Assembly: GCA_027493055.1 (NCBI GenBank)
Contig: JAPUDO010000109.1
Coordinates: 1-45,251, forward strand
Direction: 5' to 3'
DNA length: 45,251 nucleotides
Source: Niabella sp.
GTDB lineage: Bacteria; Bacteroidota; Bacteroidia; Chitinophagales; Chitinophagaceae
This document shows positions 21,061-40,916 of the stretch, one piece after another (position 1 is the stretch's first letter; every line of letters begins with the position of its first letter). The position numbers and the translations under genes were made by a program. A model generated the notes under the pieces. It was given only the letters and a program-made list of their open reading frames with translations. It made no database searches and was not told the origin of the DNA.

Positions 21061-21652
21061 TGGTTTTAATTTTCATTGTGAATCAAAAAACAAGCAATTA
21101 AAAATGCTATTGAAGCACCGGGCATCATCCGTCCGGCTTAACTTTGCCTGAAATAAAAGTAATCTTACTAACCTGTTAAAATGAACCAATCATTTACGTA
21201 TTAGATACAGGAATTTTTTAAACATGTATATACAAGTTTTTTTGAAAAAAAAATTTAATTCAATATGATTACAGCGCTACCATCAGTGACAAACCAGGTA
21301 TGCGTACGATAGTGTAAGATTTTTGTCTTGATTTGCTTAAGCATAAATAAAAAATTATGTACCCAGATTATTGGTTTCGGATAAGTATATTTCTTTAATC
21401 TTTGTACTTATTGAGCAATTAAAGATTTATTATTTACAATCGTCTCAGTAAAATTAGCAGTTTACGTTATGAGCAGCAATAGACAAAATGACCAATAAAT
21501 GTACTTTTTGATTTATATTGAATTTATAAAAATATTCTTATTCTAACATCTGAGCTATAGAAAAGCTGTATGTATAAAAATGATTCTAATAAGATTTCAT
21601 AAAATGACACCTAAGAATATTTCCTATACGTGCGAACATAAATAACAAGTAT
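21055..21652. promoter_or_regulatory. Divergent control region of susC1 and the AraC gene
   Basis: A 598-base AT-rich region without genes. It holds the GntR-type operator (21221-21237) about 170 bases upstream of susC1. Before the AraC ATG are a box AGAATATTTCCTATA at 21614-21628, identical over 15 bases to a stretch beside the operator of the Gfo/Idh operon, and a degenerate operator-like AACATAAATAACAAGT at 21635-21650. The rest shows no gene and no clear structure. Confidence 0.65.
21221..21237. promoter_or_regulatory. GntR-type operator upstream of susC1
   Basis: AACATGTATATACAAGT, a near-perfect palindrome around TGTATATACA, identical to the copies at 32845-32861 and 40900-40916. On the minus strand it reads ACTTGTATATACATGTT and is followed 11 bases later by TGTATCTA, which may be a weak -7 element. 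This would place the operator over the -33 region, fitting repression. The TTGTATATACAA-like core is known for operators of the HutC/TreR class of GntR regulators; one such gene lies at 22667-23377. Confidence 0.72.
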
Positions 21653-22528
21653 ATGAAAGATTTTATTAAATACCTGGCAACAGGTTCAAAGGAAGAAAAC
21701 TGGGGATTTTATGTCAGCACCGTTGGTTATACAAGAACCGACCCCAACCAGCGTTATCCCTCTGTAAAAAACCATCCTAAAAACCATGTATTCAACTGGA
21801 ACAATGGCAGGATATTAAATGATTATTATATTATTTTCATCTCCCGTGGAGAAGGGCTTTTTGAATCAGCGCTTGCAGGCACTCAAAAAGTCACAGCAGG
21901 AACGTGCTTCTTTTTGTTCCCCGGTGTATGGCACCGTTATAAACCAAACCCAAGATCGGGTTGGGAAGAATACTGGGTTGGATTTAATGGTTCTTTTCCC
22001 AGGCAACTGATGGGAATGAACAATTTTCAACCTCAAAATCCATTTATAAATGTAGGCTACAACAGGGAACTGTTATATAATTTTCAGAAGCTGGTGGAAA
22101 CAGTGCGGATGGCTTCTATTGGTTATCAACAAGTGATTCCCGGTTTGGTCTACCAGATATTAGGAATGCTGAACTGCTTCTCATACTATAAAGAACAAAA
22201 CACTCAGATTGACAAGATTGTAGCTGAAGCTAAGTTCCTGATGCAGGAAGCAATTGATAAAGCAACCGATATCCAGGATATCATAAAGGGCCTTCCTGTA
22301 AGTTATTCTAAATTCCGAAAAACGTTCGCTGAGAAAACAGGCGCATCTCCTAATCAATATTTGCTGGAGCTACGGCTTCAGCGTGCAAAGGAACTGCTGA
22401 AAACAACAACTTTACAAATAAAAGAAATTGCAACACAAACAGGATTTGATTCTGCGTATTACTTTTCAAAATTTTTTAAAAAAAGAAATGGAACCTCTCC
22501 TAAATCGTACCGTTCGGGCACTGCCTGA
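21653..22528 (+). CDS. AraC family transcriptional regulator 1
   Basis: A 291-residue cytoplasmic regulator with a sugar-binding cupin-like domain at residues 1-150 (FISRGEGLFESALAGTQKVTAGTCFFLFPGVWHRYKPNP in parts: GTCFFLFPGVWHRYKP) and a double helix-turn-helix at about 185-285. The second helix unit is clear: LQIKEIATQTGFDSAYYFSKFFKKRNGTSPKSYR in parts, IKEIATQTGFDS and YFSKFFKKRNGTSP. Such RhaS-type proteins usually activate sugar genes when a sugar binds. It is divergent from susC1 and likely activates it, perhaps together with the GntR repressor encoded next. The target site cannot be seen with certainty. Confidence 0.92.
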   Translation: MKDFIKYLATGSKEENWGFYVSTVGYTRTDPNQRYPSVKNHPKNHVFNWNNGRILNDYYIIFISRGEGLFESALAGTQKVTAGTCFFLFPGVWHRYKPNPRSGWEEYWVGFNGSFPRQLMGMNNFQPQNPFINVGYNRELLYNFQKLVETVRMASIGYQQVIPGLVYQILGMLNCFSYYKEQNTQIDKIVAEAKFLMQEAIDKATDIQDIIKGLPVSYSKFRKTFAEKTGASPNQYLLELRLQRAKELLKTTTLQIKEIATQTGFDSAYYFSKFFKKRNGTSPKSYRSGTA

Positions 22529-22561
22529 ATTTTATTTCTTTTTATTTAGTTAACACAGGCA

Positions 22562-22577
22562 CTTGTATAAATATCAC
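22562..22577 (+). promoter_or_regulatory. Half-conserved operator upstream of the GntR gene
   Basis: ACTTGTATAAATATCA keeps the complete left half ACTTGTATA of the operator (compare ACTTGTATATACATGT) but has lost the right half. It lies about 90 bases before the GntR start codon, a place suited to weak self-control. Low confidence, since a nine-base match in AT-rich DNA can be chance. Confidence 0.3.
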
Positions 22578-22666
22578 TTATTACTTAACAACAATAAAGA
22601 TTAAAATCAGCGGTATTCCAAATATTAAAAAAATATGTTTCTTTTGCAATGGGAGTCATTTAAAGC

Positions 22667-23377
22667 ATGAAAAAAGAATTACCTATTTACCGCCGCATGT
22701 ATGTAGACCTGAAAAAGGGGATAGACAACGGCAAGTATAAAACCGGAGATCTGCTGCCATCAGAGAATGAGCTTTGCGAAGCTTATTCAACAACCAGGCT
22801 TACAGTACGCCTGGCGTTAAAAGAACTAAAAATGCGCGGGTACATTACCAGTCAGCATGGCAGAGGGAGCTTTGTGCAGGAACCCAAAAAATCCCTCGGC
22901 ATTCTGTCTATAGGCGGTGTATCTGCAGCCCTGGGGCATAAAAATTTATTTACGGAAATCATCAGAAAACCCAAAGCCGGACAATGGGATAACGACTTCT
23001 TTTATGAGCTTAGCGCCGAGGAAAAAAAAGCAGGCGCTATTTCCTTTATAAGAGTGCGCTATGTTGACCAGATACCTATTGTTTACGAAGAAACCTTTAT
23101 GGCAAACCTGCATATCAGTAATTTCACCAGGCTCAATCTTGAAAATACCTCCTTATTTAATACACTGCATAACAAATACCAGATTGAAGTTAAAAGCGGC
23201 GAACAAAAAATATGGGCAGTTAGTTCAGACAAAGAACTAAGTAAATATCTTAAAATAAAACAGAACAGCCCCGTAGTACACATGAAGCGCAAACTAACAA
23301 CCTCTGCACCGGGCTTAAATATTTATTCTTCTCTTTATTGTAATACAGAAGAATTTTACCTGCACGATTACTTCTAA
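22667..23377 (+). CDS. GntR family transcriptional regulator with UTRA domain (HutC type)
   Basis: A 236-residue repressor. The winged helix-turn-helix covers residues 1-72: LPIYRRMYVDLKKGIDNGKY, then GDLLPSENELCEAYSTTRLTVRLALKELKMRGYI in parts (LLPSENELCEAYSTTR, VRLALKELKMRGY) and the wing SQHGRGSFV. The UTRA ligand-binding domain occupies about 95-232, with IRVRYVDQIPIVYEETFM and the C-terminal LKIKQNSPVVHMKRKLTT, SSLYCNTEEFYLHDYF. Members bind sugar phosphates or similar metabolites and then leave the DNA. The three identical operators in this window are of the kind bound by this class, so it is proposed as the master repressor of both sus operons and the Gfo/Idh operon. It is 138 bases downstream of the AraC gene. 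Confidence 0.93.
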   Translation: MKKELPIYRRMYVDLKKGIDNGKYKTGDLLPSENELCEAYSTTRLTVRLALKELKMRGYITSQHGRGSFVQEPKKSLGILSIGGVSAALGHKNLFTEIIRKPKAGQWDNDFFYELSAEEKKAGAISFIRVRYVDQIPIVYEETFMANLHISNFTRLNLENTSLFNTLHNKYQIEVKSGEQKIWAVSSDKELSKYLKIKQNSPVVHMKRKLTTSAPGLNIYSSLYCNTEEFYLHDYF

Positions 23378-23399
23378 AAGACCTGTCATCAGCCAGCTG

Positions 23400-23828
23400 T
23401 TAATCTGCTTCTCTGAGTGAGAGAATATATATAACCATAGCTTCCGCATCTTTATCAGAAATATTCGGATGGGGCGGCATCACCACATTTCCCCACATCC
23501 CTTTGGTGCCTAATATGATGCGCTGGGAGAGTATATAAATATAACTGCTGTTCATAGGATAACGGGCAGCAATATCGCTGAATGCAGGTCCCAGCTTCTT
23601 GTCTGATTCTTTATGACATATAAAACAGTCTGAATAGGACATCACTACACGACCTCTCTCTAAAACTTCGGCTGAAGGCATCACATTTACTTCACCCTCA
23701 AGTTTCAGGGTAACGGCTTCCTTACCACGATTTTCATGCGGCTGGCCTTTTCCCTCCTGTTATTGCGATGTACATCCGGTCATAAGCAAAAGGAAAAAAA
23801 TTATACCTATTTTACATCTTTCATACAT
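23400..23828 (-). pseudogene. c-type cytochrome lipoprotein interrupted by an in-frame stop
   Basis: Read from the ATG at 23828 the frame gives a lipoprotein signal (FFLLLMTGC-TSQ), but codon 23 is TAA (23760-23762). The same frame then continues without a break for 119 codons into a class I cytochrome c. This shows heme motif CFICH, LGPAFSDIAARY, and the axial-Met region VVMPPHPNISDKDAEAMVIYILSL in parts (VVMPPHPNISDKDA). Restart at the GTG at 23684 would give 94 residues with the heme motif but no export signal, so no heme could be attached in the periplasm. The gene begins eight bases after the ancestral stop of the broken DUF2231-type gene. Either a true nonsense mutation (for example CAA to TAA) or a sequencing error explains it. 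Confidence 0.75.
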
Positions 23829-23835
23829 CGGTTTA

Positions 23836-24527
23836 TTACTTCAAAATAATTTCATCAACATACATCCAGGCGCTCCCGCCAGCGCCGGGAAACCACCCGG
23901 AATCTTCAGATAGAGTTGTGCTGTCACTTTCAGGTAACCCAGATTAGCTGCTTTAACCGGGCAATAGATCAGCCGCCGCCGTGCCAGGTTTTCCAGCTTA
24001 TCTAGGGAAGGCGATAACCTGGTCAGCAGCCTTGCATTAGCCGAATCTGCCCCACCCCATATTTCAATGGACTCCGGCGCATAAACCAGCAACAAACACA
24101 GGTTTGTAAAACCGGTAAACAAGAAACGATAGCGCGACAATTGAAGCCCCTGCATCAATACTAATACCAAAGACAAAAAACAGATGGCTACGCCCGTCCA
24201 TTTATGCCACAGAAAACTGCTTCCCTCATAACCATCTTCCTTTGCCAGAAACAGTCCCATGATTACGGTAACCGCAGCAGTGAATGCTGCAATAAACAGC
24301 GATTCCTGAATCAACCGTGCTACAGGGAACGCTCCTTCCAGCTTTTTACGGAAATTGATCAGCACACCGGCCAGCACAATATGAAAGTGCAGTATCATAG
24401 GGTGCATTCTGCCTACAGGCTGCACCCACGCCGGGATGCGAACAAGGTGCTCAAACAGCAGAAAAAAAAGGATAAAGCAATTAAGGCCGATCAACAGATT
24501 CAGCCGCGAGGTAGATATTTTCATCAT
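23836..24527 (-). pseudogene. DUF2231-type membrane protein, internally deleted and frameshifted
   Basis: The first 148 residues are a four-helix DUF2231-like membrane domain with the family block MHPMILHFHIVLAG. Directly after the last helix (near residue 150, base 24080) the sequence jumps to PESIEIWGGADSANARLLTRL, which resembles a C-terminal discoidin-like domain, so the middle (usually a cytochrome or FN3-associated part) appears lost. Near 23892-23900 the frame shifts: the present frame ends GFPALAGAPGCM at 23841, while the neighbouring frame gives WFPGAGGSAWMYVDEIILK and a stop at 23836-23838, which is the family-like ending. The start overlaps the stop of the NHL gene (ATGATGA). Family comparison is from memory, the frameshift is seen in the sequence. 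Confidence 0.65.
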
Positions 24528-25564
24528 CGGCTCTTCGCTACACGTTCAAATTTATAGGGATATACTTTACCAGATGCCCATTGTGCCACATACAGGTTTT
24601 CATCACGATCAACGCATACATCGTGCGGATGCCTGAATAACGGCAGTTTCTGGTGCATTGCCTGCAGGTTACCGTTCTGATACACGGGCGCTGATCCGCC
24701 AATGTTGGTCACTACCCGATTTTCTTTATCTAATATAGTTACAAATCCGGTATTTTCCAGGTTGATCTCGGGGGAGCGGAGCACCGCTGCATAGATCCTG
24801 TCTCCCTGTATAACCGGGCGGCATACGCAGGCTCCCGGCAATTTGATGATTTCAAGGAGTTCACCTGCAAGGCTGAACCGTTTGAAACAATGCCGCGTAC
24901 GGTCGGTTACAAGTAAAGTTGGGTTGCCATTGCGCTGATCAATGGTAATGCCATGTGCATTATCCAGGAACTGGTCACCTTCACCGCGGCCGCCAAACCA
25001 TCCCTTCAGTTTTCCGTTCGCATCATAATGTAAAATATATTGCTGGCCATATCCATCAGCCACATAAATATCTCCATTGGGCGCTACTGTTGTTTCGGTA
25101 GGAATGTAGGCTTCCTTATTTTTATAGAGCGCTGTTTCTTTGGGATAATCCAATGTCATCAGCACTTTCCCATCGAGGGTGGTTTTAAAAATCTGATGCC
25201 GTTCAGTATCTGTAATCAACAGGAACTGGTCGGCTCCATTGCCTGCTATGGATAACCCGTGCGCACCGGGGTATTCCGTTCCCCAGCTTGCTTTCAGTTT
25301 TCCGCTGGTGTTATATATAAGTACGTTATTCCGCGTTTCATTTGTCAGCAGAAAAATACTTCCCTTGTGATCCTGAACCATTTCATGACAATCATTAACA
25401 GGGTGACGGGTAGTGTTCAATACGCCCCAGTTCTTTACCTGGCGGTAGAATAATCCATTATGCCCATAAACCGGTTCGCGTTTGGTCTTACCTAATGCCG
25501 TACGTGGGGATGTAACCATAGCTATTCCTGTAGCAGCACTCCCTGTAATTTTTTTTCTATTCAT
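24524..25564 (-). CDS. NHL-repeat six-bladed beta-propeller protein
   Basis: A 346-residue protein of NHL-type beta-propeller repeats, with blades recognisable by VAPNGDIYVADGYGQQYILHYD (in parts: APNGDIYVADGYGQQYI), AHGITIDQRNGNPTLLVTDR, PHDVCVDRDENLYVAQWASGKV. The N-terminus MNRKKITGSAATGIAMVTSP looks like a Tat signal that lacks the twin arginine and the following hydrophobic FLK; it is coded through a run of eight A bases, a slippage site, so export may be impaired. It is first in a small operon with the broken DUF2231 and cytochrome genes. Function may be sugar or redox-cofactor binding; not known. Confidence 0.8.
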   Translation of the reverse strand: MNRKKITGSAATGIAMVTSPRTALGKTKREPVYGHNGLFYRQVKNWGVLNTTRHPVNDCHEMVQDHKGSIFLLTNETRNNVLIYNTSGKLKASWGTEYPGAHGLSIAGNGADQFLLITDTERHQIFKTTLDGKVLMTLDYPKETALYKNKEAYIPTETTVAPNGDIYVADGYGQQYILHYDANGKLKGWFGGRGEGDQFLDNAHGITIDQRNGNPTLLVTDRTRHCFKRFSLAGELLEIIKLPGACVCRPVIQGDRIYAAVLRSPEINLENTGFVTILDKENRVVTNIGGSAPVYQNGNLQAMHQKLPLFRHPHDVCVDRDENLYVAQWASGKVYPYKFERVAKSR

Positions 25565-25698
25565 ATCTAATGTATAAAAACAAATGATATACTAATTTAA
25601 TACTGTCTGTTGTCCTTCCTGATAAAAAAACAGATCGGCAAGCTGTTAATAACAAGTAGTTAAAATAAATGAAAAATAATGTCGCCCTGTTTCGATAG

Positions 25699-27739: not shown

Positions 27740-29359
27740 TTACCAACCGGGATTTTGGTCCATGTTTGGATTCCGGTTCAGCTCTGACTGGGGTATCGGG
27801 AAAAAGTATCTTTTCTCATCAAATACCCGGGTTCTCACGTTCACCACCTGGTAGTTAAGTGTACTGCCGGTTTGTGTAATCCGCATTCCTTTGATTGTGG
27901 TATTGAATACATTCGTTCCTATTTTCCACCTTCTTACATCCCAGAAGCGGTTGTCTTCAAATGCCATTTCAATTCTTCTTTCGTGGCGGATGCGTTCGCG
28001 CATCTGATCTTTAGACAAGCCAGCGGGTAATGCGGGAAGACCCGCCCTGGCCCTGATAGCATTTACATTGGCATAAACTATATTATCTGGCCCTGTAGCT
28101 TCATTCCGTGCTTCTGCATAATCCAGCTTAAGTGTTCCCAACCTGAATAGGACCCAGGTAGCTGCCCTGTTCTGCGTCTGATTCAGTACAATGGATTCAT
28201 CTAAGAATTTCCGGAGAAAATAGCCGGTTTGCGAACGGTTGTGTGATCCGATCTCGATCGCATCCAGGCCACCAACACGGGATTCTATATTGCGATGCTG
28301 CCATTTGGCACCGTTATATAATACAGTTGCATAAAAACGCGGTTCCCTGTTTGCATAAGGCTGTGCAGGGTTATAGCCAGAGGCAACATTAACAGAACCA
28401 TCTGCATTGAAAGGATCGAGACCGTTCGCCATCTGGTAGGCATCCACTATTTGCTGTGAAGGATTTATACCTGCCCATCCACCATAGCCGGATGGAGCAA
28501 GGTCGTTTTCCATTATTCTTACAGCGCCACCAGCATTGTAAGCAAAGATGATTTCCGAATTCCAGTTGTCTAAAAACAATTTTGAATAATCGTTGTACAA
28601 CGAGAATTTATTTTGCGGATCGTTCAAAACACTTTCGGCTGCCGCAGCGGCTGCTGCCCACCGGTCTGTATTGTTGGTGGGGTTGTGCAGCGGGCTGGCA
28701 TAAAACAAAAGTGTTTCTGCCTTTAAGGCCCTCGCCGCTGCGCGGGTAGCTCTTCCAAGATCGGAGGTACGGTGCTCAACCGGTAAGGATACTGCTGCTT
28801 CTTCCGCCATATTAACAATATAATTTACACATTCTTCGAGCGAAGCGCGGGGACGCTTCAGCTCATCCGATATGTTCAACACCTCATCGATGATCACAAA
28901 CCGGCCAAAATTTTTGAACAGTTGCTGATACATCATTGCTTTCAGAAATTTAGCTTCACCAATACGCTGCCGTTTCAGATTGACATCTTCTTCCGGAACA
29001 CTCTGAATATTCCGGAGGTAAATATTGGCACGCCGTACGTAATCGTAAAGTGTTACCCACCTGTTTCCCAGGGGGTAATCTGAGGGACTTTGCAACCCGG
29101 TATTAAACCGGTATCCCCCGCCTGTCATATTTGCGCTTTCGCCTTCATCGGTAGTACCACTCAGCAGGTAATATTGCGTACCGTTGTAAATGCTTCCCCA
29201 CAAAGTAGCGTAAAGATTGGCCAGTGAACGATCGGCAATCAGCATATTTTCGTACGCATCCTCCTCACGCATCAGATCGTTTGGTTCCTGGAAAAATTTC
29301 TGGCAACCAATACCAGACAGCATTACCACTATGATGATTAAATATTTAAGCCCTTTCAT
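27740..29359 (-). CDS. SusD/RagB family surface glycan-binding lipoprotein 2
   Basis: Lid lipoprotein of the second SusCD importer. The start at 29359 (MKGLKYLIIIVVMLSGIGC) is preferred because it puts a lipoprotein signal at the N-terminus; the frame to 29398 adds 13 polar residues. In the 539-residue protein, RIGEAKFLKAMMYQQLFKNFG, RATRAAARALKAETLLFYASPLHN (both in parts) and the C-terminal LRIRHERRIEMAFEDNRFWDVRRW-like stretch (in parts: RRIEMAFEDNRFWDVRRWK) are typical of the SusD family, as are YFFPIPQSELNRNP and QNPGW at the end. 41 bases separate it from susC2. Its substrate differs from that of SusD1, judged by low similarity outside the family motifs. Confidence 0.96.
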   Translation of the reverse strand: MKGLKYLIIIVVMLSGIGCQKFFQEPNDLMREEDAYENMLIADRSLANLYATLWGSIYNGTQYYLLSGTTDEGESANMTGGGYRFNTGLQSPSDYPLGNRWVTLYDYVRRANIYLRNIQSVPEEDVNLKRQRIGEAKFLKAMMYQQLFKNFGRFVIIDEVLNISDELKRPRASLEECVNYIVNMAEEAAVSLPVEHRTSDLGRATRAAARALKAETLLFYASPLHNPTNNTDRWAAAAAAAESVLNDPQNKFSLYNDYSKLFLDNWNSEIIFAYNAGGAVRIMENDLAPSGYGGWAGINPSQQIVDAYQMANGLDPFNADGSVNVASGYNPAQPYANREPRFYATVLYNGAKWQHRNIESRVGGLDAIEIGSHNRSQTGYFLRKFLDESIVLNQTQNRAATWVLFRLGTLKLDYAEARNEATGPDNIVYANVNAIRARAGLPALPAGLSKDQMRERIRHERRIEMAFEDNRFWDVRRWKIGTNVFNTTIKGMRITQTGSTLNYQVVNVRTRVFDEKRYFFPIPQSELNRNPNMDQNPGW

Positions 29360-29400
29360 ATTGATCGTTTTCGATTTATATATTTTTTGATGTCTCATTA

Positions 29401-32400
29401 TCAGAAATTAACATTTATTCCAAAGTTGTACACCTTTTGTATGGGATAAGTAGTGGTACCCAACGCTTCTCCCATGGAAGGATTTTCCGGATCGGTCAGC
29501 TTTACTTTACTAAAGGTCAGCAGGTTCATACCATTGGCATACACCCGAATACCGTTAATGCCAATTCTTTTGGTATTGATCGTATATCCTACCTCCAGGT
29601 TTTTCAGCCGCAGGTAATCCCTGGGACGCATCCAATACGTACTACCCCGATGATTATTTACACTTTCACCCATGTGCAGCGCCGGGTAAGTAGCCGTAGC
29701 CGCTGTTTCAGGTGTCCACCTGTCCAGGTGCCATTCTATTATTTTTCCGTTTCCTCCTCTAAATTCCCAAAACATGAAATTGTCCATAAAAAAACTTGAA
29801 TTTCCGGCTCCCTGTATCAGGAAGCTTAGGTCGGCGCCTTTATAACTCAATCTCGATGAAAGACCGTACATAATTTCCGGAATGGTAATATTATGTCCGA
29901 TAGCCACCTCATCCCTGCTATCTATAATACCATCTCCATTCACATCTTTGTATTTAATATCGCCGGGTATAAGAGCTGATTTTGGCATCCATGCCACATC
30001 CGGCGCATTGTCAATTTCTTCCTGCGACTGGTAGAGGCCCAGCGCAACCAGGCCAAAAGGCTGGCCGACTCTTTTTCCCGTGCGCGACTGGTAGGCATAC
30101 TCTCTCGCCTCTTCATCCATGTTTAAAATACGGTTTCTTGCGAACGAGAAATTACCGCTAATCATCCATTGAAATTCACGGGAAGAAGCACTTTTGCAGG
30201 TTAGCTCTGTCTCAAATCCTTTGTTCTCAATAACGCCCATGTTCACAGGGGGTAAGCCGGAAGATTTTCCAAGGATATAAGGAATATTACCGCTGGTGGC
30301 CAGGATATTACTTCTCTTTTCGTAAAAAAAATCTGTAGTGAGAGACAGTCTGCTGTTCAAGGCGTTTGCTTCTATCCCCAAATTGGCCTTATTTGCCCGC
30401 TCCCACGTTACAGCAGGATTGGCCAGGTTGCCTTCTGCAATACCACCATAGCCGGTCATATTAGGACCAAAATAATACCCCGTGGTATTACCATAAGTAG
30501 GTATATACAGGTATCTTCTTGCTCCCATCTGGTCGTTACCTACCTGTCCGTAAGAAGCTCTCACTTTTAAGAAATTAATGATCCTATCATTATCTCCATA
30601 AAATTTTTCATTAGAAATAACCCAACTGGCGGAAAAGGAAGGGAACAGCCCGTAGCGCTTCCCTTCGGGAAACTGCTCTGACCCGTTATAGCCCAGGTTC
30701 AGCTCAGCAAAGTACCTTTCGTCGAAATTATAGGTAAATCTTCCCACGTATCCCTTGTAATCAAAAGGGAGGTCGAAGGGTGCATTATAAGTTACACGGC
30801 GGTTTTGATTGTACAATAATAAACCTGTTACATTGTGCAACCCAAAGCTCCTGGCGTAATTCAATCCTCCCTCCAGGTTCACGGTGCGATTATAGGCATA
30901 GGACTTGCCTGTAGCCAGGTCTGTTTCATTACCAAACTTATTGTATGTTCCGCCATAGGCTAACTGGTATACCGCATAGTTTTTCGTTCTGCTAAAGTTG
31001 TAGGCAAAACCGGCATCAAATGCAAATGCCACCCTGGCTGAAAGTCCCCGGGTAATGAACCCCAGCTTGTGGGACATTCGGTAAGTGCCCTGCAGATTGT
31101 TCCCGTAAAGATTCCGGTACCCGGTGTTGGCTATCATGCCGAGCGGGTTTGCCGGATTCAGCCCATCTCCTGCAAGGCTTCCGTCTGCATTTTTGATGGG
31201 ATAGGTTGGCGGGATCCTGTTCAGGATGGTAAAAGTCTGCCACGTGTCGCTTCCCGGGTAGTTCCGGTTTTCAACACGACCGGCAAGATCCAATCCTACT
31301 TCAAAATCTTTGGTAACGTTGATATCAATATTCGACCTGAAATTATAACGGTTAAACTTAGCATTCGTGTTGTACTCGTTCAAATCGGTAAAATTATACA
31401 TACCCTCCTGGGTAAGCGCACTTCCCGATATAAAATACCGCACCCGCTCCCCGCCGCCGGAAATATTGAGGTTAGCCCTGTACATAGGTGAGCGTTCTCT
31501 TAAAAAAGTACCTATCCAGTCTGTATTCGGATACAGATAAGGGTCGGCTCCTATGCGGTAGTATTCCAGGTCCTCTTCGCTATAAGGAAGGTCTGATATG
31601 CCATCGTTCTGAAGCGCCTCGTTATACAACCTGGCATAATCGTAAGAACTGGCATACTTCGGTAATACCATAGCACCCTGAACGCCATATTCCGATGTAA
31701 AGGAAATACTCGGCCTCCCGCTCTTTCCACGCCTTGTTGTTACAAGGATGACCCCATTAGCACCCCTTACCCCGTAAACAGCGGTAGCAGAAGCATCTTT
31801 GAGAATGGTCAGCGATTCTACTTCATTGGGATCTAACTGAGCAAAATCCCTCCCCAGCACACCGTCTACTACTACCAGTGGGGACATACTGTTAAGTGTT
31901 GACGTACCCCTGATAAACAACCGGGAGAGGTCATTACCCGGTTCACCGCTCGGTTGAAAAGTAACTAAGCCCGGTAAACGTCCGGCCAACGCATTAGAGA
32001 GGTTAGCCACAGGGCTTTGGCGCAACTCTCTTGTAGTAATAGTGGACATAGCGCCGGTGAGACTCACTCTTTTTTGTTGACCGTAAGCCACTATCACCAC
32101 ATCATCCAAAATACTTTCTGCCTCGCTGATGGTTACATCAATCACTGTTCTTCCATCTACGGGAACTTTCAATTCTTTAAGGCCTACTGCTGAAAAAATA
32201 AGTGTATCATTAGAATACGCAACTATTGAATAGTTACCATCAGCATCAGTGGAGGTACCGGCACCGGCGGATAGTACCGATAAAACCGATACACCAAACA
32301 TGGGCTCCTGGTTTGCAGAAGTTACTTTACCGCTGACTTCAAGAGGGTTAGTCCCCCCCTGGCTGAAAGCACCGGTAAAAGAAATACAAAAAGCTGCCAG

Positions 32401-32451
32401 CAAAAAACAATGCCTGAAGACAAACAGCTTTCGGGGGAAAAGTTTAATCAT
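29401..32451 (-). CDS. SusC/RagA TonB-dependent transporter 2
   Basis: Outer-membrane glycan channel of the second SusCD pair, 1016 residues. Signal peptide 1-30 (MIKLFPRKLFVFRHCFLLAA), carboxypeptidase-regulatory-like domain (about 37-110), TonB-box-like DDVVIVAYG (116-124), plug domain with LFIRGTSTLNSMSPLVVVDGV in parts (LFIRGTSTLNS, LVVVDGVLGRD), SITILKDASATAVYGVRGANGVI in parts (ILKDASATAVYGVRGANG), and a barrel that ends in NFGINVNF. The stretch GVSVLSVLSAGAGTSTDADG has a few additional residues compared with the usual GVxVxxKGTxxGTxTDxxG motif. The likely promoter is about 370 bases upstream, a long leader for a sus gene. Confidence 0.97.
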   Translation of the reverse strand: MIKLFPRKLFVFRHCFLLAAFCISFTGAFSQGGTNPLEVSGKVTSANQEPMFGVSVLSVLSAGAGTSTDADGNYSIVAYSNDTLIFSAVGLKELKVPVDGRTVIDVTISEAESILDDVVIVAYGQQKRVSLTGAMSTITTRELRQSPVANLSNALAGRLPGLVTFQPSGEPGNDLSRLFIRGTSTLNSMSPLVVVDGVLGRDFAQLDPNEVESLTILKDASATAVYGVRGANGVILVTTRRGKSGRPSISFTSEYGVQGAMVLPKYASSYDYARLYNEALQNDGISDLPYSEEDLEYYRIGADPYLYPNTDWIGTFLRERSPMYRANLNISGGGERVRYFISGSALTQEGMYNFTDLNEYNTNAKFNRYNFRSNIDINVTKDFEVGLDLAGRVENRNYPGSDTWQTFTILNRIPPTYPIKNADGSLAGDGLNPANPLGMIANTGYRNLYGNNLQGTYRMSHKLGFITRGLSARVAFAFDAGFAYNFSRTKNYAVYQLAYGGTYNKFGNETDLATGKSYAYNRTVNLEGGLNYARSFGLHNVTGLLLYNQNRRVTYNAPFDLPFDYKGYVGRFTYNFDERYFAELNLGYNGSEQFPEGKRYGLFPSFSASWVISNEKFYGDNDRIINFLKVRASYGQVGNDQMGARRYLYIPTYGNTTGYYFGPNMTGYGGIAEGNLANPAVTWERANKANLGIEANALNSRLSLTTDFFYEKRSNILATSGNIPYILGKSSGLPPVNMGVIENKGFETELTCKSASSREFQWMISGNFSFARNRILNMDEEAREYAYQSRTGKRVGQPFGLVALGLYQSQEEIDNAPDVAWMPKSALIPGDIKYKDVNGDGIIDSRDEVAIGHNITIPEIMYGLSSRLSYKGADLSFLIQGAGNSSFFMDNFMFWEFRGGNGKIIEWHLDRWTPETAATATYPALHMGESVNNHRGSTYWMRPRDYLRLKNLEVGYTINTKRIGINGIRVYANGMNLLTFSKVKLTDPENPSMGEALGTTTYPIQKVYNFGINVNF

Positions 32452-32458
32452 ACTCAGT
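32397..32458 (-). repeat. SusC2 leader/signal-peptide segment shared with SusC1
   Basis: Partner of the segment at 20999-21060. The bases coding the signal peptide and the seven or so bases before the ATG are close to identical, while the mature proteins are strongly diverged. See the separate finding. Confidence 0.7.
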
Positions 32459-32531
32459 TGTTTAAATTTTTATGAATTAGAAACAAGCAATAAAAGGACC
32501 GTTAATAAGAGTTTGTAGCAAATGAATAGTA

Positions 32532-32548
32532 AATATGTTTATACAAAT
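32532..32548. promoter_or_regulatory. Degenerate operator-like site in the susC2 leader
   Basis: AATATGTTTATACAAAT shares 13 of 17 bases with AACATGTATATACAAGT, in the same orientation. It lies about 80 bases before the susC2 start. A possible second binding site for looping or for weaker repression, but AT-rich DNA makes chance likeness possible. Confidence 0.3.
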
Positions 32549-32822: not shown

Positions 32823-32830
32823 CAAATATA
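32823..32830 (-). promoter_or_regulatory. Candidate -7 promoter box for susC2
   Basis: TATATTTG on the minus strand is a perfect TAnnTTTG match, 14 bases downstream of the operator. The corresponding box at the Gfo/Idh operon is TATATTCG, 12 bases from its operator, which supports a common promoter design where the operator covers the -33 region. Confidence 0.55.
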
Positions 32831-32844: not shown

Positions 32845-32861
32845 AACATGTATATACAAGT
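32845..32861. promoter_or_regulatory. GntR-type operator upstream of susC2
   Basis: AACATGTATATACAAGT, identical over 17 bases to the copies upstream of susC1 and the Gfo/Idh operon. The flanking GGAATTT-rich stretch on the plus strand is also alike in all three. Probable target of the GntR/UTRA regulator at 22667-23377. Confidence 0.75.
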
Positions 32862-33983: not shown

Positions 33984-34847
33984 ATGAGACCTGCTTTAGA
34001 AGATGTAGCATTACGGAAAGGAAATTATTCTTTCGTGGTGTACCCGTACTCAACGCCTGCTTTTGAATTTAAATGGCATTATCATCCGGAGTATGAGCTT
34101 ACGCTTATAGTACAGGGAGCAGGAAGCAGGATTGTGGGGGACAGCCACCTGCCATTCCAGGAAAACGACCTGGTACTGCTGGGGCCTTGGCTTCCGCATA
34201 CCTGGTTTAGCCATTCGGAGTATAACGGGGAGTGTAAGGCTGTGGTTATCCAGTTCTCAGAGTCTTTCCTGAAGCCTTTTTACTCCTTTACTGAATTTGA
34301 AGCTATTGCAGAACTCTTAAAGGATGCCGGCCGGGGATTATGTTTTGAGCAGGACGCAAATATTATAAAAGAAATCACCGGTATTGCTGAAACAAAAGAA
34401 ATGCATAGAGTGGCCAGTCTATTCAATATACTGCAATTGCTGCTCACAAAAAAAAGGAATTACTTATCTCAAAAATTCTTTGTCTTAAAGCAGAGCGAAA
34501 AATCTCAAAGCCGCATAAATGAAGTTTGCAAATTTGTACATGACCATGCCGGAGACAGCATCACACTGGAAGAAGTGGCCCGTAAGATACACTTATCAAA
34601 AAGTGCCTTTTGTAAATTCTTTAAAAGGACTATGAAGGTTACTTTTTCTGCGTATATAAATGATATACGTATTGCCAATGCATGCAGGCTGCTTACCTTC
34701 TCTGACCATACTATCAGGGAAATAGCTGTTGAAACGGGGTTTGATAACATTACCTATTTTAACAGGGTATTCTTCAAAAAGAAAAACTGTACACCAACAG
34801 CATTCAGGAAAGCTGTTGCGGATAACTATGCAGGGCATGCTGAATAA
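33984..34847 (+). CDS. AraC family transcriptional regulator 2
   Basis: A 287-residue regulator. The N-terminal cupin-like domain is clear: FEFKWHYHPEYELTLIVQGAGSRIVGD in parts (WHYHPEYELTLIVQG), then FQENDLVLLGPWLPHTW. The double helix-turn-helix spans about 180-282: ITLEEVARKIHLSKSAFCKFFKRTMKVTFSAYIND in parts (LEEVARKIHLSKSAFCKFFK) and REIAVETGFDNITYFNRVFFKKKNCTPTAFRK in parts (EIAVETGFDNITYFNRVF). WHYHPE is the usual start of regulators that sense sugars. It probably controls the divergent PhyH gene and perhaps susC2. Distinct from AraC 1, which lacks the WHxHxE motif. Confidence 0.92.
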   Translation: MRPALEDVALRKGNYSFVVYPYSTPAFEFKWHYHPEYELTLIVQGAGSRIVGDSHLPFQENDLVLLGPWLPHTWFSHSEYNGECKAVVIQFSESFLKPFYSFTEFEAIAELLKDAGRGLCFEQDANIIKEITGIAETKEMHRVASLFNILQLLLTKKRNYLSQKFFVLKQSEKSQSRINEVCKFVHDHAGDSITLEEVARKIHLSKSAFCKFFKRTMKVTFSAYINDIRIANACRLLTFSDHTIREIAVETGFDNITYFNRVFFKKKNCTPTAFRKAVADNYAGHAE

Positions 34848-34949: not shown

Positions 34950-37790
34950 TTAATCGCTTACCTCATCCACCAAATATAAAAGTGACTCGTAATTAGCGCC
35001 TGTTGCCTCTGATAGTGCTATCTCGCAAGTTTTGGTAGTAGCGTAGTATCCCTCATATTTATGAGCACAAACCTCTTCGGCTTCCTCTTTAGTTGCTGAA
35101 TGCGTTAACTCCGGAAAAAGGAAACCCCTGTCACCTGCCATTCCGCAGCAGCCGGCATGTACAGGCACGGTTACTTTGTTGGACAGCTTTTTGGCTACCT
35201 GTACAAATTTCTCTGAAGTACCCAGTTTTTCAACAGCACACACAGGATGCAGCACAATATCATCTTTTTTCTTATGGATAGCTATAGCCGGCAATACATA
35301 ATCATGTAAATAATCTACACTATCTAAAAAAACAAGCTGATCGTATTGCTGCTGTCTTTCGGCAGACAAAGCGGGCCTTATATTTTTCAATGTGTACACG
35401 CAGGAGCTTACGTCCATTACAACCGGCAACCGGCCCTCATCCGTAGTGATCCACAGTTTTTGAACAATATCATTAGCGGTGTACTCATAAGCTTTTGAAA
35501 AACCTTTTGAAGAAAAGATCTGCCCGCAACAGGCGCCTGGCTCCATCATGAGCTTTACAGCAATACCAGCTTTTCCAGATACGCTCATAAATACTTCAAG
35601 GCTGTTTTTCTTTTTACCGGGAGTGGTACCCATAACACGGGAAATACAGGCCGGGAAGTAAACAATAGCAGGTTGCGATGTATTGTTACTATAAGAAGGA
35701 TGGCGCAGCACACGAAGCGATGGTGGTGCAGGCATTTCTTTGGACCATAAAGGAAGGGAAGGAAAAATGCGCCTCAATCCTTTAGTGAGATAGGTCATAG
35801 CGCCGGCGCCAAACAGTTTATTCACCATAGTTCCGGTACTCAGGCCTGTACGTACTGCTTTTTCAACCAGCGGGAAGCTTTTGGCAACCTTTAACGCAAG
35901 AGCATTCTGGCGCTGGCTATGGCTTTCCCGTCTCAGGCGTTTTACCAGGTCTCCGGTATTGATATACACCGGGCATGCGCCTGCACAAAGCCCATCCACA
36001 GCGCAGGTATCCAGGCCATCGTATTGATATTCGTCTAAAAGCTCCGTATAGGTCTCTTTACTCTTTGTTTCCTGTAAATACTTTAATTCACGGCGAACCA
36101 CAATTCTTCTCCTGGGTGTTAAGGTGAGGTTCCTGCTGGGACAAACAGGCTCACAATAACCACATTCAATACAGCGGTCTACTTCTTCTTCTACAGAAGG
36201 AAGCGATTTAAGGTCTTTGATATGGGCGTTTTTATCTGCATTGATGATCACACCCGGGTTCAATAACCCTTCCGGATCGGCCAGCTCCTTTATCTGCTTC
36301 ATGATGTTGTACGCAGCGCCGCCCCACTCTGTTTCAACAAAGGGCGCCATGTTGCGGCCGGTACCATGCTCCGCTTTTAAAGTGCCATCGTACTTTTTAA
36401 CTACCAGCTCTACCACATCTTTCAGGAAACGATCATAATGCTCAATTTCAGCCGGAGTATTAAAGGACTGTGTAACTACAAAGTGGATATTACCATCCTT
36501 TGCATGCCCGAAGATGATGGCATTATGATAGCCAAACTTCTGAAACAAATTTTGCAGATCCAGTATGGCATCTCCCAGATGCTGTAAGGGAAACGCTATA
36601 TCTTCCAACACCACCGTGGTACCACTTTTACGAATAGCACCAACAGCAGGGAAAAGCCCTTTCCGTATCTTCCAGAAAAAAGCTCTTTCTTTTGCATCGG
36701 TGGTAAATACCGGTACGTTGTAAACTTCAAGAGCCTGTATGCCTGTAAGGAAACTATTAACCTGCCGTTCCAGCAATTCCATATTTTCTTCCTGAAATTC
36801 AATCAACAGCGCGCTTGCTGTTTCCGGGAGCAATTTTATTTCATGCGATATACCCGGCAGGTCTTCAATAGCGCGTAAGGAGGCCCTGTCCATCAGCTCC
36901 ACCATTGCAGCACCTGCATTAATCAATGGCTGAATGGCTTTGCAGGCTTTATAGATGTCCTCAAAGTATAACAGTGAAGTAGCTTTAAAAGCAGGCTCGG
37001 GAATGGTTTTTAATACAGCTTCGGATATAAATGCAAGCGTACCCTCGGCGCCAATCAGCAGATGGGCAAATATATCCAGCGGATGTTCAAAGTCTATCAG
37101 TGCATTGAGCGAATAGCCCACTGTATTTTTAGTGGTGTATTTTTTCCTGATCTTTTCATACAGGGCCTCATCACTCAATACCTGGTTACGCAGGCTGATC
37201 AGGGTGCCGCTTAGCTCCGGACATTCGTTAAGAAAGCGATGATAATCTTCAGGAACTTCAGTGGAGAATGTTTTCCCATCAGGCAAAATAAACCTGATAA
37301 ATAAAGTAGTATGGTAAGAGTTGAAAGCAACGCCGCAACACATACCGCTTGAATTGTTAGAAAGTATGCCACCCATCATTGCAGCAGAAATGCTGGACGG
37401 ATCGGGACCTATTTTACGTTGATATTTTTGCAGGTAGATATTCACCATAGCTCCCGTGATGCCCGGCTGCACCCTTACTTTATCACCATTTTCTTCCACC
37501 TGTATTTTATTCCAGAACTGGCTTAGATCCACCAGTATCCCATCAGTTATAGACTGGCCCGAAAGGCTGGTACCGCCGGTACGGAATACAACCGGGACTT
37601 TTTGCTGATGTGAAAACCTGAACAGGTGAATAATCTCCTCATTGGATACCGGCTGTACTACTGCTTTAGGTATCAGCCTGTAAAAACCCGCATCTGATGC
37701 ATAAGCCACAAGATCTATTAAGCGTGATTTGATACGTTTGGCTGGTAAAATCGTTTCGAGCTGGCGTGCTATACTGTTTTCCTGTTCCAT
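34950..37790 (-). CDS. FAD-linked oxidase fused to Fe-S/CCG domain protein (GlcD-GlcF type)
   Basis: A 946-residue cytoplasmic flavoprotein of the D-lactate/2-hydroxy-acid dehydrogenase kind, in which the GlcD-like and GlcF-like halves are fused. The ATG at 37790 is preferred over a TTG at 37808. FAD-binding: VVFRTGGTSLSGQS and IGPDPSSISAAMMGGILSNNSSG in parts (IGPDPSSISAAMMGG) at about 65-150. The FAD-oxidase C domain at 240-510 has GHAKDGNIHF and AEHGTGRNM. A 4Fe-4S set follows: CIECGYCEPVCP (Cys540, 543, 546, 550), CAVDGLCAGACP (596, 602, 606). Two CCG modules come last: EPGACCGQIF and HAGCCGMAGDRGF. It would oxidise a 2-hydroxy acid and pass electrons to quinone. It follows a FucP-type permease gene, so a sugar-derived acid is plausible. 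Confidence 0.92.
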   Translation of the reverse strand: MEQENSIARQLETILPAKRIKSRLIDLVAYASDAGFYRLIPKAVVQPVSNEEIIHLFRFSHQQKVPVVFRTGGTSLSGQSITDGILVDLSQFWNKIQVEENGDKVRVQPGITGAMVNIYLQKYQRKIGPDPSSISAAMMGGILSNNSSGMCCGVAFNSYHTTLFIRFILPDGKTFSTEVPEDYHRFLNECPELSGTLISLRNQVLSDEALYEKIRKKYTTKNTVGYSLNALIDFEHPLDIFAHLLIGAEGTLAFISEAVLKTIPEPAFKATSLLYFEDIYKACKAIQPLINAGAAMVELMDRASLRAIEDLPGISHEIKLLPETASALLIEFQEENMELLERQVNSFLTGIQALEVYNVPVFTTDAKERAFFWKIRKGLFPAVGAIRKSGTTVVLEDIAFPLQHLGDAILDLQNLFQKFGYHNAIIFGHAKDGNIHFVVTQSFNTPAEIEHYDRFLKDVVELVVKKYDGTLKAEHGTGRNMAPFVETEWGGAAYNIMKQIKELADPEGLLNPGVIINADKNAHIKDLKSLPSVEEEVDRCIECGYCEPVCPSRNLTLTPRRRIVVRRELKYLQETKSKETYTELLDEYQYDGLDTCAVDGLCAGACPVYINTGDLVKRLRRESHSQRQNALALKVAKSFPLVEKAVRTGLSTGTMVNKLFGAGAMTYLTKGLRRIFPSLPLWSKEMPAPPSLRVLRHPSYSNNTSQPAIVYFPACISRVMGTTPGKKKNSLEVFMSVSGKAGIAVKLMMEPGACCGQIFSSKGFSKAYEYTANDIVQKLWITTDEGRLPVVMDVSSCVYTLKNIRPALSAERQQQYDQLVFLDSVDYLHDYVLPAIAIHKKKDDIVLHPVCAVEKLGTSEKFVQVAKKLSNKVTVPVHAGCCGMAGDRGFLFPELTHSATKEEAEEVCAHKYEGYYATTKTCEIALSEATGANYESLLYLVDEVSD

Positions 37791-37986
37791 CTTTTGCAAA
37801 GAAAGCAAAATACTGCTATTTTTATTTACTTAGTGATAAGATTGCCTAACATTTTTTGGAAGTTTGACCAATCCTAATAAATTCGGGAAATAACCGGATA
37901 TGATTTTTAATTTTCAACATTCTATTTTTCCCCTGTTAAATAACGAAAGGATTACACGCTTATAGAAAACATTATTGCACACACCA

Positions 37987-38007
37987 TTCGGCCCCTCCAG
38001 GGCCGAA
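37987..38007. terminator. Perfect hairpin (possible terminator)
   Basis: TTCGGCCC and GGGCCGAA are perfect eight-base arms around the five-base loop CTCCA. On neither strand does a T-run follow directly, so factor-independent termination is uncertain. Confidence 0.45.
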
Positions 38008-38043
38008 CAACCTTTGTGTATATTTTTTCTATAAATATTTAAC

Positions 38044-38071
38044 CCTCTCAGAGCCTTTACCCTCTGTGAGG
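38044..38071 (-). terminator. Second hairpin, possible terminator of the permease gene
   Basis: CCTCTCAGAG and CTCTGTGAGG pair over nine of ten positions around an eight-base loop. On the minus strand the hairpin is followed by AT-rich DNA, 68 bases after the stop codon of the FucP-type permease gene. Confidence 0.45.
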
Positions 38072-38138
38072 TGATATGTATTATGCGATCTTTTTGCTAT
38101 AGATATGCAACTTTTGCGGGTTCCTGAACAAAAAAATA

Positions 38139-39566
38139 TTATGCATCCGGTGAGCTGTTACGCATGCAATACATACCAAAAACAGCGATGTATAAATAAC
38201 ATAAAACTGGTAGTATGTAGGAGTATTGTATGCCTATCCAGTCAGCTAATCCGCCTTGTATTAGCGGGATCAGGGCACCACCAAGTATGGCCATGATCAA
38301 TAAGGATGAGCCCTGGTTCGTGTATTTTTTTAAACCGCTTATGGACAAAGTGAAAATATTGGACCACATGATGGAGTTAAATAATCCAACACTCAGGATA
38401 GTCCACATGGCTATATTACCGGAAGTAAACATGGTAATAGTTACCAGTAAGATATTGATGGCGGCAAAAATGAATAAAGTTCGTGCAGCAGCCCAGCGCC
38501 CCCAGATAAATGCAGCAAGATTCAGCAAAAGGAATAGGATAAAGTAAGATACCTGTTCAAATGTCAGATCAACCAGCGCCAGGATAACGCCAAACACAAC
38601 AGCTGAAGTAAGCGCCATAAATATAATACGTTTGAAAGAGCTTAAATGCTGACTTAATGAAATAGAACCTAAAAACCGGCCAATCATGGCACCGCCCCAG
38701 TACACAGCCAGGTAATTTTTACCAACATTTTCCGGCAGGCCCATTATATTTTCCTGCTGCAGAAAATTAATCATAAAGCTGCCGATGGCAACTTCTGCTC
38801 CTACATAACAAAAGATGGCAAATACGCCCAAACGCAGGTGGGGAAAGCCCCAGGCGCCCAACCCTTTTTTGGTTTCTTCAGCAGATGTAAACAACGGTAG
38901 CTTTACAGTATAGATCAAAACAGAAGCCACTATAAAAATCATCGCAAAGATGATATAAGGTGTTTTAGTTGCTTCGGCAGATATATGTGCAGACTCACCG
39001 GCGCTGCCAAAAATAATAGCGCCACCTATAACAGGAGCAATTGTAGTACCAAATGAATTAAATGCCTGTGCCAGGTTTAAACGGCTGGAAGCCCCTTCCG
39101 GAGCACCAAGCAACGATACATAAACATTGGAAGTTATCTGCAGCAGGGTAAATCCCAGCCCTAAAATAAAGAGTGCTGAAAGAAACATCCAGTACTGACC
39201 GAAACTTGCCGCAGGATAGAACAATAAGCAGCCTAATGCAGAGATAAAGAGACCGATCATAATACCTTTTTTATAACCGATCTTATTAATAGCATCGCCC
39301 TTATGATAAGACAACAAAAAGTAAATCACCGAGCCCAAAAAATAGGCCCCGAAAAAACAAAACTGAACCAGCATCGACTCCAGGTAGTTAAGCCGGAACA
39401 GCTCTTTCAAATGAGGTATCAAAATATCGTTCATGCAGGTAATAAATCCCCACATAAAAAAGAGCGTGGTTAAAGTAAACAATGGCATGCGGTAAGCACC
39501 CTTTGCCGCTTTATCAGGTACAGACGCGTTATCCACAGGTATATTTGTTTCCTGGCTTATATTCAT
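38139..39566 (-). CDS. FucP-family MFS sugar permease
   Basis: A 475-residue, 12-helix inner-membrane H+/sugar symporter of the FHS (L-fucose permease) family. The start ATG at 39566 is preferred over a TTG at 39575. FFMWGFITCMNDILIPHLKELF (in parts: FMWGFITCMNDILIPHLK) is the family first-helix motif. QFCFFGAYFLGSVIYF, GYKKGIMIGLFISALGCLLFYPAA (in parts: GYKKGIMIGLFISALG) and SRLNLAQAFNSFGTTIAPVIGG (in parts: LNLAQAFNSFGTTIAP) are also typical. A usual ANPYV becomes SNVYV. FHS members carry fucose, glucose/galactose or GlcNAc; the exact sugar cannot be read. It follows the cytoplasmic Gfo/Idh gene by 104 bases, and both sit under the GntR-type operator. Confidence 0.92.
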   Translation of the reverse strand: MNISQETNIPVDNASVPDKAAKGAYRMPLFTLTTLFFMWGFITCMNDILIPHLKELFRLNYLESMLVQFCFFGAYFLGSVIYFLLSYHKGDAINKIGYKKGIMIGLFISALGCLLFYPAASFGQYWMFLSALFILGLGFTLLQITSNVYVSLLGAPEGASSRLNLAQAFNSFGTTIAPVIGGAIIFGSAGESAHISAEATKTPYIIFAMIFIVASVLIYTVKLPLFTSAEETKKGLGAWGFPHLRLGVFAIFCYVGAEVAIGSFMINFLQQENIMGLPENVGKNYLAVYWGGAMIGRFLGSISLSQHLSSFKRIIFMALTSAVVFGVILALVDLTFEQVSYFILFLLLNLAAFIWGRWAAARTLFIFAAINILLVTITMFTSGNIAMWTILSVGLFNSIMWSNIFTLSISGLKKYTNQGSSLLIMAILGGALIPLIQGGLADWIGIQYSYILPVLCYLYIAVFGMYCMRNSSPDA

Positions 39567-39670
39567 TGATGGCAAGTTTATAATAAAAGAAATTGTATAA
39601 AAAGCGTAATTACGATGATCTTTAATGTAATCAGAAATAAGTTAATACATATAGTTTTAATCCATACAGC

Positions 39671-40822
39671 TTATATAACGGTAACAGGAACATCTGCATA
39701 GCTCACTTCTACTACAGATTGCGTAAGATGCGACTGAAGCGCCGCTTCAAATATCCTGTGGCTGTCTACAGCTTCTTCGGGTGTTACGCAACCAAATTTA
39801 CCGTCAAGTCTCCTCCCCCGCTCTACTATATAAGCTGCCAGCATCTGCAAAAAGCAATCTGCAAAACCTGCTTCAAATATGCCACCCGTTGTAACAGGGA
39901 ACTGGGTTTGAAAACCAAGATCCACCCGTTGCCATAGCTGCTCTTTACCATTTTTAAAAGTCCAGAAGACCTTTGTATCTTTTGTACTATACCTGGCTCC
40001 GCCCCCGGTTCCCAGCACCTCTATGTACCAGGTGTTTGTTTCTCCGGGCGCCAGGCGCTTCATCTCAAGCGTCATAGGGATGGGCTCTTCATCAATCGTC
40101 AGCTTACAGTTTATAATTGCATTGTTCCAGGTATCGCAGGGCACTATTTGGCCTCTTCCATTTGGCCTTTCATGAACAATTTTTTGTAGTTGCCCAAATA
40201 CAGCAGAAGGCTTCCAGCCAAGTCTTAGGGGTATGTGCAACACATGCATGCCCAGATCAGCCATTACGCCTAATTCACCACAATATTGTGACTGCCGCTT
40301 CCAGTTAATAGGTTTATTGAGATCCATATCGCTGGAGTGCAGGAAACCCGCTTTTATTTCTATAATTTTTCCAAGCCTGCCCGAAAGCACTTCCTGTATA
40401 ACACGCTGCGCTCCCGGCATAAAAGGCATTTCAGAACTGCATCTTACAAAACGGCCTAACCGGTCTGCTTCCTGCTGTATAGCTAAAGCATCCTCCAGGC
40501 TGATGCCAAAAGGTTTTTCGGCCAGCAGGTCTTTGCCTGACTGCAACACTGCTGTATAAATTTCTTTATGCATGGAATGGGGCACAGCCACATATACTAC
40601 ATCTATGCTTTTATCAGCCAGCAACTCGGTATAATCAGTAGTTTTTAATACAACCGGGGATATTTTATTGTACCATGACAAAACATGTTCGTTAAGGTCG
40701 CAAACAGCGGTTAGCTGCGGGCAGAAAGGAACATCATTCAGTGTAAACCATCTGCCAAAAGCGCTTGCAGCCTCTTTTCCCATTAGTCCGCCACCTATTA
40801 TGCCGATATTTATTTTTTCCAT
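39671..40822 (-). CDS. Cytoplasmic Gfo/Idh/MocA family oxidoreductase
   Basis: A 383-residue NAD(P)-dependent dehydrogenase without any signal sequence. Rossmann fold: INIGIIGGGLMGKEAASAF (about 4-22). LLAEKPFGISLEDALA has the catalytic EKP motif (about 98), and GVMADLGMHVLHIPLRLG is the typical substrate-side DxGxH motif. It is only remotely related to the Tat-exported enzyme at 10374-11792. It probably oxidises the sugar that is brought in by the FucP-type permease gene next to it; myo-inositol- or 1,5-anhydro-sugar-type reactions are also known for the family. The operator lies 78 bases upstream of the start codon. Confidence 0.92.
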   Translation of the reverse strand: MEKINIGIIGGGLMGKEAASAFGRWFTLNDVPFCPQLTAVCDLNEHVLSWYNKISPVVLKTTDYTELLADKSIDVVYVAVPHSMHKEIYTAVLQSGKDLLAEKPFGISLEDALAIQQEADRLGRFVRCSSEMPFMPGAQRVIQEVLSGRLGKIIEIKAGFLHSSDMDLNKPINWKRQSQYCGELGVMADLGMHVLHIPLRLGWKPSAVFGQLQKIVHERPNGRGQIVPCDTWNNAIINCKLTIDEEPIPMTLEMKRLAPGETNTWYIEVLGTGGGARYSTKDTKVFWTFKNGKEQLWQRVDLGFQTQFPVTTGGIFEAGFADCFLQMLAAYIVERGRRLDGKFGCVTPEEAVDSHRIFEAALQSHLTQSVVEVSYADVPVTVI

Positions 40823-40899
40823 ATACTAAAATGTACTATTTAAATGTTAAGCAGGTCAATACCGTTATATTTTAAAGATCGAATATAGGAAATATTCTA

Positions 40900-40916
40900 A
40901 ACATGTATATACAAGT
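40900..40916. promoter_or_regulatory. GntR-type operator upstream of the cytoplasmic Gfo/Idh operon
   Basis: AACATGTATATACAAGT, identical to the copies at 21221-21237 and 32845-32861. The neighbour TATAGGAAATATTCT (40884-40898) also resembles the flanks of the other copies. It would put the Gfo/Idh, FucP and dehydrogenase genes under the same GntR regulator as the two sus operons. Confidence 0.75.

Follow-up and report, generated by a model that had tools for sequence, protein, structure and literature searches.

A likely HutC-type GntR regulon spanning two SusCD operons and a Gfo/Idh-FucP operon in Niabella sp.

Positions 1–45,251 of contig JAPUDO010000109.1 of Niabella sp. (assembly GCA_027493055.1; Bacteroidota, Chitinophagaceae), referred to here as the window, carry one 17-base sequence in identical form upstream of two SusCD-type import operons and of an operon encoding a Gfo/Idh/MocA dehydrogenase and a FucP/GluP-type sugar transporter. 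Judging from sequence, the three operons very likely make up a single regulon of a HutC-type GntR regulator, encoded between the sites at 22667–23377 on the plus strand and the proposed binder of these operators. This would be a compact regulon, with two outer-membrane importers and one cytoplasmic sugar route under one sensor; because importers and sugar route would answer to the same sensor, knowing its ligand would give a lead to what both importers take up.

The 17-mer, AACATGTATATACAAGT, has three exact copies in the window, all on the plus strand and each upstream of a minus-strand gene, as the initial annotation had reported. Operator 1 (21221–21237; gene-strand ACTTGTATATACATGTT) precedes the susC1 operon, operator 2 (32845–32861) the susC2 operon, and operator 3 (40900–40916) the Gfo/Idh-fucP operon, at 167, 394, and 78 bases, respectively, from the annotated start codons. 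The further statement that all copies have the same orientation to the gene is correct as far as strands go, but says less than it seems to: the operator is an imperfect palindrome, ACTTGTATATACATGT around the core GTATATAC, so its orientation depends on one broken base pair. The core is of the HutC type (GT-A-TA-T-AC), as had been proposed, and fits the HutC operator consensus NyGTMTAKACNy quoted in PMC4494728. Allowing up to three mismatches, the window has seven matches against 0.10 expected by chance, namely each of the three sites read on both strands, and positions 32532–32548. The last of these (three mismatches) was rejected as an operator; it scores −1.7 in a matrix built from 22 foreign sites (described below), and its 9.9 in one loose palindrome matrix falls under two other chance places.

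A genome-wide motif search, as envisaged in the initial annotation, covered the organism's own assembly (5,747,285 bases in 131 contigs). No exact copy was found in the whole 5.75 Mb beyond the three window sites, so the motif is not scattered. With up to two mismatches there is just one extra place, C103:7300 (two mismatches), and a reversed-pattern control gave none. The 13-base core with one mismatch is near background, with 30 matches (six of them strand readings of the three sites) vs. 23 for the control. Three sites and a single two-mismatch place, an empty control, and a relaxed core near background together indicate that the operator set is real and confined to this locus; both the identity of the sites and their restriction within the genome come directly from the computation. 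The C103 place was excluded as an operator: it reaches 10.2 in the 22-site matrix, yet makes up one half of a longer inverted repeat in the intergenic region where it lies. This repeat (L004:1503–1532) consists of CATTTATATACAA and TTGTATATAAATG with 4 bases between them, lies upstream of a gene whose start resembles, by eye, a helix-turn-helix (HTH) protein, and is probably the operator of another regulator.

The gene at 22667–23377 encodes a GntR winged HTH (PF00392, 4.2e-16, residues 8–70) followed by a C-terminal UTRA effector domain (PF07702, 9.7e-17, residues 124–230), which confirms its original classification. None of the named HutC-type NCBIfam equivalogs (LSA1692, TreR, HutC, PhnR, PhnF) was reached, the best score being 102.7 bits vs. 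a cut-off of 275. Among solved structures, the best match is NagR/YvoA (2wv0, E 1.1e-11). The protein has an arginine at the recognition-helix position that, according to PMC4494728, makes the base-G contact in FadR and AraR, a contact suggested there to be general. Two UTRA proteins were found in the genome, this one and another on contig C84, and their recognition helices differ (TRLTVRLAL vs. SRSTLRHVL); no operator is present in the 3.4-kb locus of the C84 protein. Scanning the contigs of the genome with the GntR protein gave no relatives, and no close relative was found in 148 other genomes of the same family and order, where the best-scoring match (39%) covers the HTH only and full-length matches are at 23–29%.

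The link between this protein and the operator comes from more distant bacteria. Among 395 genomes drawn from across the class, the window GntR had matches at E ≤ 1e-15 in two genomes other than its own, and in the family of those two, which belongs to another order, relatives at E ≤ 1e-18 are present in 70 of 222 genomes, with 32–45% identity and mostly near-full length. The exact site ACTTGTMTAKACAAGT occurs in 20 of the 70 genomes with a relative and in none of the 152 without, with the reversed control at zero throughout (Fisher p = 1.1e-11, related genomes treated as independent; the list of 20 motif genomes was compared by hand with that of the 70 gene-bearing ones). Stretches of up to 20 kb, several cut by contig ends, were fetched around 63 of the 74 matches. 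At up to two mismatches these 63 loci contain 31 sites. Counted from the gntR start, 30 fall within −1400 to +1100 and 17 within −60 to −28; 50 scrambled-palindrome controls on the same loci gave a mean of 1.34 and a maximum of 10. The association of GntR clade and operator is, like the window sites themselves, a computed result.

A tree and alignment of the 63 relatives and the window protein divide the relatives by recognition helix into 27 with TQP and 36 with R (mostly RMTVRQAL or RMTVRRAL). Sites at up to two mismatches are found in 23 of the 36 R-type loci vs. none of the 27 TQP-type ones (p 2.7e-8), although the TQP proteins form one clade, so few independent events lie behind this split. 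In this sister clade, 15 of the 27 loci have some perfect 16-base palindrome upstream of gntR (TQP examples are L118, L128, L130–L133, and L152–L162). In the matrix of 22 foreign sites, the three window sites come out on top at about 20 bits, with the next window score at 2.9; the best single scores in 20 Markov-random windows were 17.0, 16.1, and 12.4.

The nearest rival for the role of binder is the AraC-family regulator AraC1 (21653–22528, plus strand), which is divergent from susC1 and a possible second input there. Operator 1 lies within the AraC1-susC1 intergenic region, and AraC1 relatives in the genus likewise adjoin SusC genes. It is nevertheless very improbable that the motif is bound by AraC1, with GntR playing no part. 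AraC1 matches are common (32 of 149 genomes, its own included, at E ≤ 1e-20, with eleven others at 48–55% identity), but in the same 149 genomes exact ACWTGTATATACAAGT occurs outside its own genome in only two, each time inside a long open reading frame (ORF), and none of 13 AraC1 loci fetched (including a second copy in the window's own genome) has the operator at up to two mismatches. The operator is also symmetric and of HutC type, and tracks GntR relatives in another order. A congener, G014, has a matching locus (L247; AraC1 48%, susC1 63%, susD1 72%, GH106 71%, PhyH1 76%), with no GntR ortholog and no motif in the genome; its sequence upstream of susC1 has only a short, chance-like match to the window, not at the operator. 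With AraC1 relatives lacking the operator and the G014 locus lacking both GntR and motif, the motif follows GntR rather than AraC1. Taken at face value, the comparison makes the GntR wiring look like an addition to the susC1 locus.

The placement of the sites relative to possible promoters suggests how GntR might act. The Bacteroidetes −7 box is given as TAnnTTTG (PMC7366714, PMC9723704), at −12 to −5 in one flavobacterium. Reading the gene strand downstream of the operators, a −7-like box, TATATTTG, is located 14 bases from operator 2 (32823–32830, minus strand) and another, TATATTCG, one base off the consensus, 12 bases from operator 3 (40880–40887, minus strand). The similar GGAA flanks remarked on in the initial annotation can be understood in part from this. 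On the gene strand they read TTCCTATATTTG at site 2 and TTCCTATATTCG at site 3, and lead into the promoter box; however, the plus-strand GGAA is at a variable distance from the 17-mer (7, 10, and 8 bases), and at site 1 the flank is degenerate. With start sites inferred from these boxes, operator 2 would span roughly −43 to −27 and operator 3 roughly −41 to −25.

Binding and repression are both inferred, and the full explanation, considered highly probable, would run as follows. GntR would bind the three near-palindromic operators as a dimer; at about −43 to −25, operators 2 and 3 would overlap the −33 region, so that the bound protein would most likely block RNA polymerase. GntR would leave the DNA when its UTRA domain bound an intermediate of catabolism, probably a sugar phosphate, and the two SusCD import operons would open at the same time as the Gfo/Idh-FucP operon. 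Some activators also bind near −43 to −25, upstream of a −7 box, and no TTTG was seen by eye at the usual −33 spacing, so GntR could instead be an activator or dual regulator at these sites; the NagR of B. thuringiensis has been named a dual regulator (PMC6141813). The distance from site to box varies (14 and 12 bases, and unclear at site 1), unlike fixed-geometry activation, and the HutC-type proteins NagR (PMC4333415) and DasR (PMC4918961) are described as repressors, which makes activation or dual regulation unlikely here.

Less likely still, to the point of being barely credible, is a reading in which the sites are not operators at all but leftovers of a dispersed repeat or of a recent duplication. 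The idea draws on the susC1 and susC2 leaders, which have in common a 166-base block at 78% identity (20911–21076 vs. 32308–32473), covering the signal-peptide coding sequence and the start-proximal leader, while the SusC1 and SusC2 proteins are 27% identical overall. The block stops 145 bases before operator 1 and 372 before operator 2, and so does not include the identical sites. In addition, outside the promoter box the three sites have different flanks, the 17-mer has no further copies in the genome, and GntR relatives in another order have this site beside them too.

Several points weigh against the GntR explanation. Of the 70 genomes with a GntR relative, 50 lack the exact site, and 13 of the 36 R-type loci have no site at up to two mismatches in the fetched stretch. 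Five of these 13 (L119, L120, L122, L123, and L125) are from genomes carrying exact sites elsewhere; the genomes of the other eight have no exact site, L110 and L112 having weaker candidates. In L144, counted among the 23 positives, the sole site is 5.1 kb away. Many foreign relatives have an operator in front of their own gene, whereas the window gntR has none. Both Fisher values overstate independence, since the genomes share ancestry and the TQP proteins are a single clade. Site 1 has no clear −7 box, and the 394 bases between operator 2 and the susC2 start would require a long leader. Control of susC1 may lie chiefly with AraC1, or AraC1 may be an additional input there. Finally, the 22 foreign sites were collected by their likeness to the window palindrome, which makes their matrix partly circular.

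This circularity is offset by a matrix built without reference to the window palindrome, from the best palindrome of any sequence (at least 7 of 8 pairs) at −300 to +15 of each R-type gntR. Such palindromes were found in 20 of the 36 R-type loci, 11 being the operator or a close form and nine unrelated or differently framed; even so, the window sites ranked first to third at 15.3, with the next at 11.7. When a GT-N4-AC core was required, a palindrome was found in 11 of 36 R-type and none of 27 TQP-type loci, and the window sites scored 20.4, the next 5.2. The proposal of one GntR regulon over three operons draws support from its comparative link and is very likely right, qualified by AraC1 as an extra candidate and by the uncertain extent of the third operon (below). 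Autoregulation of the window gntR through a half-site at 22561, which resembled a decayed operator, was also considered and rejected; the half-site scores −1.3 against the foreign-site matrix.

A clue to the ligand class comes from the UTRA domain. In NagR, Arg133, Arg135, and Ser165 are among the phosphate contacts and Glu145 partly binds the sugar (PMC4333415). These residues align with R129, R131, S162, and E141 of the window GntR and are widely kept among the 64 aligned proteins (R129 and R131 in 59, S162 in 63, E141 in 64). The best guess for the ligand would thus be a phosphorylated sugar, perhaps a catabolic intermediate.

Genes near or under the foreign sites include a deoC-type aldolase (in L108 at 195.5 bits, where TIGR00126 requires 117.3), kinases resembling ketohexokinase, and a protein resembling xylose isomerase. 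Gfo/Idh genes adjoining gntR are also among them, Pfam-confirmed in L105 only and elsewhere recognized by weak similarity. SusCD divergent from gntR was seen in just two of the 63 loci: L112, with TCTTGTGTATACAAGA between them, and L115, which has the same arrangement with no recognized site. In four genomes (G631, G635, G637, and G638; loci L191, L194, L197, and L201) exact sites are located about 100 bases before an iolB match, in G631 (L191) at the head of the order IolB, IolC, aldehyde dehydrogenase, IolG, and SSF transporter, suggesting a GntR-controlled inositol regulon there. Further sites in these genomes are by an amino-acid permease/threonine-dehydrogenase-like pair and by a DUF7133-cytochrome gene. 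Inositol as a general ligand was rejected: iolB is present in 54 of the 222 genomes, only four of which have the GntR gene, and with 50 of the 54 lacking this GntR, inositol is not a general signal. Since the iolB wiring is local to four genomes, it says little about the ligand of the window GntR.

The initial annotation regarded such control as unlike the hybrid two-component or SusR/anti-sigma control usual for these loci; a GntR protein over SusCD and cytoplasmic genes is, however, not without precedent. ManR (BT2103) of Bacteroides thetaiotaomicron, of the GntR family, is predicted to control cytoplasmic sugar genes together with a SusCD operon with mannosidases (PMC3878776), and AusR of Zobellia galactanivorans is described in a review as a GntR-family repressor of alginate loci that is released by breakdown products (PMC8286568). 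ManR, as described, thus resembles what is proposed here from site architecture, one GntR-family protein over cytoplasmic sugar genes and SusCD; the comparison is by description, and differs in that ManR is predicted for mannosides and one SusCD operon, where the window sites cover two. AusR, which we take to belong to the FadR subfamily of GntR, unlike the window protein, is likewise a single GntR repressor over polysaccharide utilization genes, but the genes described as its targets are those for alginate. The same GntR/HutC layout of HTH and UTRA domains is found in NagR/YvoA of Bacillus subtilis and in DasR, with the phosphate-contact arginines of NagR conserved in the window protein; their target genes differ. 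The relatives in the other order, at 32–45% identity, have the same operator core and palindrome but other targets, among them deoC-type aldolase, ketohexokinase-like kinase, and Gfo/Idh genes, with an inositol operon in four genomes. Repressors of HutC type with such a consensus are familiar, and the sources cited report (AusR) or predict (ManR) SusCD loci under GntR control. No description of this particular regulon was found in the literature searched, which does not prove absence. No hybrid two-component, SusR, or extracytoplasmic function (ECF)/anti-sigma regulator was found among 20 window proteins scanned with Pfam.

The circuit, which is very probable, would be solid but fairly conventional, with a DNA code common to a distant bacterial family. 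A more tentative idea, toward which we lean less than away, is that this lineage acquired a HutC-type regulator from another family and superimposed it on loci linked to AraC in congeners, with the operator kept almost unchanged and the targets replaced. If so, the operator code would have stayed the same across orders while the regulons were rewired, with inositol, deoC-aldolase, and ketose-kinase genes as targets elsewhere and two SusCD importers here. The comparative set would in any case be a natural experiment on a regulator keeping its DNA code while changing targets.

The genes of the three operons are all on the minus strand. The first comprises susC1 (17965–21054) and susD1 (16153–17943, Pfam), with a GH106 alpha-L-rhamnosidase-type enzyme (12908–16015, Pfam) on the same strand, and the second susC2 (29401–32451) and susD2 (27740–29398, Pfam). 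In the third, the Gfo/Idh/MocA dehydrogenase (39671–40822; Pfam, NCBIfam) is followed by the FucP/GluP-type major facilitator superfamily transporter (38139–39575; TIGR01272, 286.8 bits, cut-off 202.55). An FAD-linked oxidase/Fe-S dehydrogenase lies further on (34950–37808, also minus strand), with a second AraC gene, AraC2, at 33984–34847. Between fucP and the FAD/Fe-S gene there is a 330-base gap with a strong stem-loop at about 37975–38015 (−23.5 kcal/mol over a 71-base stretch, z −4.0 vs. shuffles), possibly a terminator. With this gap and stem-loop, the FAD/Fe-S dehydrogenase is an uncertain member of operon 3, which may consist of the Gfo/Idh and FucP/GluP-type genes alone and end at the stem-loop. 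At 8902–11792, a protein with a 3-keto-disaccharide hydrolase domain is found beside a Gfo/Idh protein of glycoside 3-dehydrogenase type (281.9 bits, under the NF058561 cut-off of 750), a pairing that hints at a possible 3-keto-glycoside route behind susC1D1.

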